Source: Methanocaldococcus sp.
Lineage (GTDB): Archaea; AGJL01; Methanococci; Methanococcales; Methanocaldococcaceae
Reading direction: 5' to 3'
Length of the DNA: 35,858 bases
NCBI RefSeq assembly: GCF_024490875.1
Contig: NZ_JACCLX010000023.1
Coordinates: forward strand, 1 to 35,858
Each line of letters begins with the position of its first letter. The stretch's first letter is position 1. Below are positions 174 through 35,784 of the stretch, one piece after another. The notes beneath the pieces were generated by a model. The model was not told the origin of the DNA. It saw nothing but the letters and a program-made list of their open reading frames with translations, and did not search any database. A program made the translations under genes and the position numbers.

Positions 174-1145
174 TTACAATTCTGTCCAGCCTAATGATTT
201 TTTAAGTACTTCAACATTAATTTTTCCAGATTTGTATACCTTACCATTTGTTATATCATTAATTATTACAACTGCTGGAGCAAACATACCTTTATCTATT
301 TTATAAAAGTCATAATCAGCTGATTTAAAAACTTCCATAAATGGTTTTCCATAATCTTTTGATGTGCATGAAGGTAATGCCTTACAAAGAGATTCAATAT
401 CATCATTTTCATCACTTTTAATGTAATAATAGGTTATTCCTCCATATAACACCATATCGTTTGTAGCACCCATCATAGCAAAATCATCTCCAATTATTGG
501 GGCAATTGGAGCTAAACCAGCGGCATATTTAACCTTTGTAACATCAAACTCTAAACACTCTAACATTTTATATGTTCCATTCTCTACAACTCTACCACTG
601 ATTTGTATAGAACCTACCAATGAAGATGTAGGAGCCACTAATAAATAAACATTTTCTGGCTCAACATTACATTCTTTTGCTACATAGTCAGCAACTTCTT
701 CATTAGGTAATTTTGAAGCCTCTAAACATAAAACAGCAACATCTGCATCATCTTCATATTCAATTTCTTCATAAGTTTTCTTAGGTTTTTTAGCCAATGC
801 TCTTGCAGGACCTGAACCCATTGCAAAGTATTTGCCAACTTTTACTGCCCAACCTGCCTTTTGAGAACCTAATGTAGCAATGGCTGGATGAGATATTTTT
901 ACTTTAACAAATGGAAGGTTTATATCTTCAAAACCTGATGGAGATAAGGATATACCAACATGAGCTAAACCACCAAGGCAAACCTTTGTAAATAACTTTC
1001 CTGCTGCCCAACTTCCGGGGACATTAACTCCACAATCTAAAACAGTTGCTCCATTTTCTAATTTTATAACTTCTATATTTAACTCCTCTTTTTTTGAAAT
1101 CATATGATTTACGATTTCCAAGGCTTTTTTATTTACACTTATCAT
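174..1145 (-). CDS. mch: Methenyltetrahydromethanopterin cyclohydrolase
   Basis: This cytoplasmic enzyme interconverts formyl- and methenyl-tetrahydromethanopterin in the C1 pathway from CO2 to methane. The protein is 323 residues, the usual size for archaeal Mch. It matches the family along its length, for example the [13 protein letters not shown] segment near residue 40, the GGLAHVGIS stretch that follows it, and a C-terminal GMFAPA segment. The open frame extends upstream to a TTG at 1160, but I chose ATG 1145 because GGTGG sits six bases before it and five extra residues would lie inside that ribosome site. It is divergent from mptE with about 120 bases between. This is a core methanogenesis gene and nothing in it looks odd. 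Confidence 0.97.
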
Positions 1146-3505: not shown

Positions 3506-3860
3506 ATTTTGAAATAACTATAAAATCTTATTTTATAATTGTCAGGTATTTTTCACATACCAATAAGAGCCTTCTTCTATGGATGTATTATTACTTCACT
3601 CGTTTTTCATAATTTGCCTTCCCTCGCTAAAAATTTTTATTTTTTGATTTAGGGGGTTTTAATTTAAAATTTTTTAATTTTAAGGATTTTTATCAAATTT
3701 CGAAGGGTCTTTTATTTTGATTAATTTGAGTATTTAATTTTATTAAATTATTGAGATTATTTCCTAATTTTTTTAGTTTATTTTTATCTTCAATTTTCCC
3801 CGATAATTAGGTTAATATTAAAAATTTCAAGGATTTTAAAGACAATAAATCAAAATAGAA
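3506..3860. other. AT-rich intergenic stretch
   Basis: No complete gene is visible here. The stretch has long T runs (for example 3635-3650) that could end the DHH transcript, a small hairpin with GGTAT and ATACC arms near 3546-3562, and a minus-strand open fragment described separately. The rest is low-complexity A/T sequence. Confidence 0.6.
3693..3806 (-). pseudogene. Possible gene remnant, 37 codons, no start
   Basis: The minus strand has an open stretch between an in-frame TAA (3807-3809) and a TGA (3693-3695). It reads KLKKLGNNLNNLIKLNTQIN in its core, followed by QNKRPFEI. The GNNLN heptad-like pattern recalls small relaxosome (MobC-type) and coiled-coil proteins. There is no ATG, GTG or TTG start and no ribosome site, so if real it is a decayed fragment. 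It could equally be chance in AT-rich DNA. Confidence 0.2.
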
Positions 3861-3940
3861 AAATTTATATATAAGTTCGGAGGTATATAAATAACAGGGG
3901 TAATTGACCCTCCGAACCATAACCCCTATATAAAGGAGAA
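3861..3940 (+). promoter_or_regulatory. TATA-flanked GC-rich inverted repeats, possible CRISPR leader promoter or small RNA
   Basis: A GC-rich island stands in very AT-rich DNA. It holds a perfect 9-bp inverted repeat (GTTCGGAGG at 3875-3883, CCTCCGAAC at 3909-3917) interleaved with a 6-bp one (AGGGGT at 3896-3901, ACCCCT at 3922-3927). As RNA the interleaved arms could form an H-type pseudoknot or two exclusive hairpins; as DNA the 9-bp repeat could be an operator. TATA-like boxes lie before it (TTTATATA, 3864-3871) and at its end (TATATAAA, 3927-3934). The second would start transcription some 25 bases before the first CRISPR repeat at 3984. In AT-rich hyperthermophiles GC islands often mark structured RNAs, but no known RNA family is recognised. 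Confidence 0.45.
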
Positions 3941-3983
3941 TAATAAGGTAATTTTAAAATTTTATCTCTTCAAATTGTGTCCT

Positions 3984-4214
3984 GTTTAAAATCAGGCCCA
4001 AAGGGGATGGAAATATCGACAAACTTAAAACTAACTGGCAATATACTTTAAGTTTAAAATCAGGCCCAAAGGGGATGGAAATCCACAATATGCTATCTAT
4101 AACTAAAATAGTCATTTGACCGTTTAAAATCAGGCCCAAAGGGGATGGAAATATTCATTTTGAGTTGTTTAATGATGCTTTAATGGAGTTTAAAATCAGG
4201 CCCCAAAGGGGAAG
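3984..4214 (+). CRISPR. CRISPR array 1: three full repeats, one degenerate repeat, three spacers
   Basis: Three identical 31-nt repeats start at 3984, 4052 and 4122. They begin GTTTAAAATCAGGCCC and end GGGGATGGAAAT. A fourth copy at 4188 is intact for its first 24 bases but then departs from the consensus (GGGGAAGGCAA). Spacers are 37, 39 and 35 nt (4015-4051, 4083-4121, 4153-4187) and unlike each other. The ATGGAAAT end resembles the crRNA handle of other archaeal repeats, so I place the array on the plus strand with the degenerate repeat at its far end. CCC-AAA-GGGG inside the repeat gives a very short stem. No cas genes are in the window, so processing enzymes must be encoded elsewhere. 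The right end merges into the long repeat. Confidence 0.95.
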
Positions 4215-4555
4215 GCAAAAAGAGGCATTGCTTCTTAAAAGAAGCAATGTATCCCGGGTATCCCAATAGGGCGGAGCCCTATGGGTATAAAATCAGGCCC
4301 CAAAGGGGATAAAAGTATTTAAATTTTTTAATGGTATAAAATATTTATAAATTTCTATATTCACATCTTTTTTAAGAGTAATAACGAACCTCGGGAAAAT
4401 CTTGATCTGAATATTATAAAATCATATAAATAACAAAAAAATATTATAGTAATATGAAAAATTTTAAAATTATAATATTACTATAATAAAAATTTAAAAT
4501 TTTTTATGATTTGATATTAACAAATCCCGAGAGTAAATATTATTCATTATAAAAA
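4188..4555 (+). repeat. CRISPR-associated long repeat (LR), copy 1 of an inverted pair
   Basis: This stretch is repeated in reverse orientation at 35409-35784 with roughly 90 percent identity by eye. It includes the degenerate CRISPR repeat (4188), a double hairpin, a second CRISPR-like repeat (4286-4310) and about 240 bases of AT-rich sequence ending a few bases past the ilvD stop. Shared words include AAGAGTAATAACGAACC and GATTTGATATTAACAAATCC. The M. jannaschii genome paper described LR segments of about 400 bp adjoining short repeats, and this matches that element. A TATA-like AAATTTAAATAC on the minus strand (about 4315-4326) points toward the array. Confidence 0.93.
4225..4285. other. 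Double hairpin in spacer-like position within LR copy 1
   Basis: Two strong inverted repeats lie end to end. The first pairs CATTGCTTCTT (4226-4236) with AAGAAGCAATG (4239-4249). The second pairs CCC-A-ATAGGGC (4262-4272) with GCCCTATGGG (4276-4285), with a single bulged A. They occupy the 74 bases between two CRISPR-repeat-like sequences. The same pair is kept in LR copy 2. Confidence 0.85.
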
Positions 4556-35408: not shown

Positions 35409-35784
35409 TTTTTATAATGAATAATACTTACTCTTGGGATTTGTTAATATCAAATCATAAAAAATTTTAAATTTTTATTATAATAATATTATAATTTTAA
35501 AATTTTTCATATTGTTATAATATTTTTTTGATATTTTTCTTATTTTGTAATATTCAGATCAAGAATTTCTCGGGGTTCGTTATTACTCTTAAAAAAGATG
35601 TGAATATATAAATCTATAAATATTTTATATTATTAAAAAAATAAAGAATTTAAATACTTTTATCCCCTTTGGGGCGTGATTATATACCCATAGGGCTCCG
35701 CCCTATTGGGATACCCGGGATGCATTGCTTCTTAAAAGAAGCAATGCCTCTTTTTGCCTTTCCCTTTGGGGCCTGATTTTAAAC
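35409..35784 (-). repeat. CRISPR-associated long repeat (LR), copy 2 of an inverted pair
   Basis: The reverse complement of this stretch matches 4188-4555 with roughly 90 percent identity by eye and the same internal order: AT-rich part, CRISPR-like partial repeat (35661-35685), double hairpin, degenerate repeat (35759-35784). Most differences are single substitutions and short indels in A/T runs. It starts some 20 bases past the hypD stop, just as copy 1 starts right after ilvD. A TATA-like AATTTAAATAC (35647-35657) points toward the hairpins. Confidence 0.93.
35687..35747. other. Double hairpin in spacer-like position within LR copy 2
   Basis: The first hairpin pairs CCC-ATAGGGC (35687-35696) with GCCCTAT-T-GGG (35700-35710). 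The second pairs GCATTGCTTCTT (35722-35733) with AAGAAGCAATGC (35736-35747), a perfect 12-bp stem. In copy 1 the outermost pair of the second stem is G and T, the only change in the arms. Confidence 0.85.

Follow-up and report, generated by a model that had tools for sequence, protein, structure and literature searches.

Palindromic repetitive DNA elements have been reported in Methanocaldococcus jannaschii (Suyama, Lathe & Bork 2005, FEBS Lett 579:5281; cited in PMC2229807 and PMC2996958). The double-hairpin element described here is like them in organism group, in palindromic form and in high copy number (55 matches in the genome G008), and probably belongs to the same type. Where the two citing papers refer to the M. 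jannaschii elements, they mention neither long target duplications nor insertions into CRISPR arrays. The YPAL (RU-2) element of Yersinia is 168 bp long, has internal inverted repeats and no TA ends, and generates target duplications of variable length (3-26 bp) at targets located at or near dyad symmetry (PMC2229807). Like the present element, it is small and palindromic, produces duplications of variable length, and has been observed alongside empty sites (PMC2229807). However, it differs in length and sequence, and its duplications are shorter than the approximately 20-60 nt observed here.

Three other systems share features with the element. REP/BIME sequences, with TnpA-REP, likewise form extragenic, modular arrays of hairpins. 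In contrast, the target duplications here are long, and a Y1 transposase is missing in 12 of the 14 genomes searched. Archaeal MITEs, such as those of Sulfolobus, are likewise small and non-autonomous and carry target duplications, although the duplications of the present element are far longer and variable, and no parent transposon was identified in searches with PF00078, PF01797 and PF01867. Cas1-Cas2 spacer acquisition also yields an insert between two repeats, but the slot of this element is leader-distal, its duplications outside arrays are variable, and its sites are mostly non-CRISPR. Within the literature searched, which comprised papers available without subscription, we found no description of the long duplications, the empty sites or the CRISPR insertion. 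What is new here is the length of the duplications together with the insertion at CRISPR.

The window, by which we mean the whole stretch of 35,858 nucleotides of Methanocaldococcus DNA that was analysed, comes from contig 23 of the genome G000 and carries the element at two loci. At the first, on the plus strand, a short CRISPR array (3984-4154) with three intact repeats is followed by a degenerate repeat, the double hairpin, another degenerate repeat and a trailer. The same arrangement is present on the minus strand at 35409-35784. The features are as follows.

3984..4154, plus strand: CRISPR array with three intact repeats (GTTTAAAATCAGGCCCAAAGGGGATGGAAAT); the leader lies at left, at about 3840-3983.
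4188..4219, plus strand: left flanking CRISPR repeat GTTTAAAATCAGGCCCCAAAGGGGAAGGCAAA, the final ~8 nt of which (the crRNA tag region) are unconserved; read as the left copy of a target duplication.
4220..4284, plus strand: double-hairpin element, read as mobile from its fold, covariation and dispersed copies and from a covariance model score of 84.7 bits (E 8.8e-19), this same copy being in the training set of the model.
Within 4220..4284, plus strand: hairpin 1 GAGGCATTGC...GCAATGTATC, joint CCGGGTATC and hairpin 2 CCAATAGGGCGGAGCCCTATGG.
4285..4316, plus strand: right flanking CRISPR repeat GTATAAAATCAGGCCCCAAAGGGGATAAAAGT, which is the terminal repeat; it begins directly after hairpin 2, like the duplications at non-CRISPR copies.
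4317..4555, plus strand: AT-rich array trailer ('LR' body), present behind many arrays of the genome G000, with or without hairpins.
35688..35752, minus strand: second double-hairpin copy (88.3 bits), between two degenerate repeats and followed by a second trailer, to 35409.

A preliminary description had recognized two strong hairpins between CRISPR-like repeats at both loci, and this arrangement stands. The borders it gave, 4212-4285, are too wide, since they overlap the end of the left repeat and extend one base into the right repeat; the exact limits are 4220-4284 on the plus strand and 35688-35752 on the minus strand. Both flanking repeats (4188-4219 and 4285-4316) span the whole length of the array repeat but are degenerate, with the first ~25 nt matching it and the last ~8 nt diverging. 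The leader, which is TATA-like and conserved ahead of the first repeat in several arrays, is on the left side, so the hairpins are at the leader-distal end of the array. Spacers of the array are 36-40 nt long, and the hairpin slot is 65 nt. The trailer (4319-4555 and 35409-35645) is repetitive in its own right: its ends are nearly palindromic (CTCGGG...CCCGAG), and behind several arrays (L063, L066 and L068) two copies of it lie in tandem. Upstream of the leader, at 3543-3583, is a degenerate stretch resembling hairpin 2 (ACCAATAAGAGCCTTCTTCTATGG) that the covariance model does not report at E <= 1. A tRNA/tmRNA search of the window found none.

The structure of the element is well supported. 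As previously described, GC-rich hairpins are set in AT-rich DNA, with 49% G+C in the element compared to 29% in the window and 15% in the neighbouring trailer. The strong fold was likewise borne out: the region 4212-4285 folds at -29.8 kcal/mol versus -18.5 +/- 3.0 for shuffled sequences (z = -3.7; no shuffle among 200 folded as well), and a larger region around the hairpins has z = -3.4 relative to shuffles in both window copies. The copy at 4220-4284 has a single G:T end pair that is G-C in the other copy, also as noted before. The covariation test of the stems that the preliminary description had proposed was positive. Among 39 distinct copies, standard pairs are present in 98.1% of cells, compared to 92.9% in shuffles. 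Changes on both sides of a pair are seen in 8 pairs and 41 cells, where 3.0 and 8.9 are expected, and none of 500 shuffles was as high. Structures displaced along the same 39 copies are only 23-42% paired. The hairpin structure is therefore real, and it is conserved by compensating changes. Hairpin 1 accounts for most of the variation, and the CRISPR-borne copies alone vary little. The stems are as well kept in copies far from CRISPR as in those within it. Some copies (L010 and L120) have a hairpin 1 loop in inverted orientation, reading CCTCGCT..CGCTCGG versus CCGAGCG..AGCGAGG in other copies. A known structured RNA family was considered and rejected, as Rfam scans by gathering threshold and by E-value gave sub-threshold matches only.

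A DNA search with 77 nt around the hairpins matched 11 of the 14 genomes of the genus, and most matches are located away from CRISPR repeats. A covariance model (R1) built from 39 copies gave 28 matches in G000 and a maximum of 55 in G008 (1,664,970 bp), which we take to be M. jannaschii. In G024 (1,854,197 bp), from another genus of the same order and presumably Methanotorris igneus, it gave 46. None or one match was found in G002, G003 and G010, of which G003 and G010 have no copy and G002 one weak copy. The 65-nt unit is present in nearly all Methanocaldococcus genomes and in one neighbouring genus, mostly outside CRISPR, and many similar copies, up to about 55, are dispersed within a single genome. 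A virus or plasmid source was rejected: none of 2.9 million viral contigs contains an exact match to the core of hairpin 2, and none of 72,556 plasmids matches the 66-nt element.

Non-CRISPR copies abut target duplications and have empty orthologous sites that contain a single copy of the duplicated stretch. For 65 usable non-CRISPR copies, we compared the 90 nt to the right of hairpin 2 with the sequence to its left. The flanks are similar at a score of at least 18 in 33 copies, a level reached by 1.9% of mismatched flank pairs, and the right-hand duplicate begins 0-4 nt after hairpin 2 in 29 of these 33 cases (null, 10%); many copies are orthologous or related, and these counts are not fully independent. 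In a further set of 20 copies, which includes G002 and both non-Methanocaldococcus genomes tested, 15 score above every mismatched pair, and in all 15 the duplicate begins 0-4 nt after hairpin 2. This is not a fully independent sample, as a few of its members are shared with, or are near copies of, the earlier 65. About half of the 65 copies have no detectable duplication, for which age or composite structure may account. Among the best-preserved duplications, lengths of about 22 to about 60 nt are seen (L048, 22; L038, 35; L080, 42; L081, 50; L201, 56), and hence there is no fixed ruler length.

At ten sites we joined the flanks to predict the empty site and sought this sequence in relatives. 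Relatives are uninterrupted and have a single copy of the stretch at most of the ten (e.g. L081, L123, L080, L084, L130 and L010), and the alignments of L005 and L046 are less clean. In the left target copy, the end or start of a gene, or the end of a tRNA, is often intact. Copies are located in or at tRNA genes in L078, L194, L200 and L189, and in the first three of these the duplication begins in the tRNA T-loop (TTCRAATC).

In the CRISPR-borne copies, hairpin 2 is followed directly by the right repeat, and the left repeat ceases to match the array repeat near nt 25, a length that falls inside the duplication range of the non-CRISPR copies. The notion of a CRISPR-specific element is unsupported, given that most copies are elsewhere in the genome and that the flanking repeats match the target duplication of those copies. 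The proposal that the hairpins anchor adaptation proteins is unsupported as well. We consider it very probable that a dispersed palindromic mobile element inserted at the array, duplicated a CRISPR repeat, and was then copied together with the trailer. The double hairpin would be a passenger in the array rather than a part of CRISPR, the same unit being scattered genome-wide. Several points count against this explanation, among them the undetected duplications of about half of the 65 non-CRISPR copies, the relatedness of many copies, the ambiguity of hairpin-free trailers and the failure of the searches to identify an enzyme. A further point is position: the insertion falls exactly, to the base, on a CRISPR repeat edge, for which the chance is about 1 in 66. 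As judged from sequence, this exact fit and the duplications that start in T-loops suggest a preference for structured targets.

The exact edge is also what would be expected had the hairpin been taken up as an ordinary spacer by Cas1-Cas2, since spacer uptake too would give a repeat-hairpin-repeat arrangement with exact edges, and the hairpin does abut a repeat exactly at its leader side. A general spread of the element through Cas1-Cas2 would further fit the occurrence of Cas1 in all 11 genomes matched by the DNA query and the failure to find it in two of the three negatives (G002 and G003). However, both forms of this idea are very unlikely. The slot is leader-distal, and its 65 nt exceed the 36-40 nt spacers of the array. 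The left repeat matches to about nt 25 only, being without its last ~8 nt in the hairpin-bearing trailers examined. Away from CRISPR, the duplications vary from about 20 to 60 nt with no single ruler length. In addition, Cas1 only partly tracks the element and was rejected as a predictor of it: G010 has two Cas1 matches and no copy, and a weak copy flanked by a ~42-nt duplication is present in G002, where the Cas1 search was negative.

Hairpins with intact stems persist in about ten G000 trailers and in several belonging to G009 and G013. This retention favours a present role for the array-borne copy as a putative terminator, a 3' end-stabilising hairpin or a pre-crRNA boundary, which would be compatible with a mobile origin or any other. 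Such a role seems unlikely to us, because several G000 trailers are without hairpins, the stems are equally kept far from CRISPR, and there is no U-tract directly after the hairpins. Four hairpin-free trailers of G000 (L063, L064, L065 and L066) have a terminal repeat, which in L063 resembles a hybrid of the array repeat and the right-hand repeat. Judging from these repeats, trailers of this kind may represent the original state or may have arisen later by deletion between repeats. The hybrid form suggests secondary deletion in some, and thus hairpin-free trailers are no proof of the direction of insertion at CRISPR; we rejected their use as proof of the pre-insertion state.

In L061 (G000:C27:1-1500), the repeats at 199, 269 and 337 all carry the altered tail GGGGAAAGTTA of the hairpin-adjacent repeat, as if the array had shrunk to that repeat and then regrown from it. 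A unit of spacer, repeat, hairpin and repeat is tandemly duplicated in L072 (G009:C1:292900-294500, about 420-800), where the hairpin is found twice in one array. In L116 and L117 of G013 (about 560-800, minus strand), the slot holds hairpin 1, hairpin 2, an AT-rich linker and a second hairpin-2 type, and this longer composite ends at the same base. An inverted copy of the element is located upstream of the CRISPR leader in L057/L070 (G000:C16, about 30195) and in L118 (G013), such that these loci are bracketed by inverted hairpins, and L074 looks like a recombinant of an inverted hairpin pair of this kind.

For the movement of the element we propose the following route. A non-coding element of 65-70 bp, composed of hairpin 1, CCCGGGTAT and hairpin 2, would integrate in DNA form where a putative enzyme had made staggered cuts in the two strands, some 20-60 nt from each other, and gap repair would produce a direct duplication of 20-60 nt on both sides. 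By the same reaction, one copy would have entered a CRISPR array at its terminal repeat, on the edge facing the leader, in a single ancestral event before the G000, G009 and G013 lineages split. The duplicated stretch would have been the CRISPR repeat, giving the repeat-hairpins-repeat arrangement, and the array trailer, hairpins included, would then have been copied behind other arrays of the genome.

Searches of the 14 genomes for RVT_1 (PF00078), Y1_Tnp (PF01797) and Cas1 (PF01867) identified no moving enzyme. Variable duplications with one exact end, and a structure kept by compensating changes, would also be consistent with a transcribed RNA that spreads in a SINE-like manner by target-primed reverse transcription. 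We regard this as highly improbable, because RVT_1 was found in none of the 14 genomes while control genomes were matched, and because the inverted hairpin 1 loop of L010 and L120 points to DNA-level events. Being palindromic, extragenic, modular and of high copy number, the element resembles REP/BIME and might be of the REP-like kind, owing its movement to a domesticated Y1 (TnpA-REP/IS200) transposase. Yet Y1_Tnp is present in only two of the 14 genomes and absent from G000. Moreover, the long target duplications are unexpected for IS200/IS605-type insertion, which to our knowledge makes none, and movement by a Y1 enzyme is extremely improbable. The absence of reverse transcriptase, the restriction of Y1 to two genomes and the mismatch between Cas1 and copies in G010 and G002 together favour DNA integration at staggered breaks followed by gap repair. 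A new, transposase-independent route is conceivable, though doubtful. Breaks or nicks lying tens of bases from one another might capture folded hairpin DNA, or an off-target Cas1-type integrase might join it, which would result in uniquely long and variable duplications and favour structured targets, CRISPR repeats and tRNA T-loops among them.

What might have been a component of CRISPR is thus replaced by a mobile-element event. Less expected is an archaeal hairpin element that duplicates up to about 60 nt of its target in genomes without reverse transcriptase and mostly without a REP-moving transposase. As gene ends, gene starts and tRNA ends are often intact in the left target copy, the element is able to insert into genes while leaving them unbroken.
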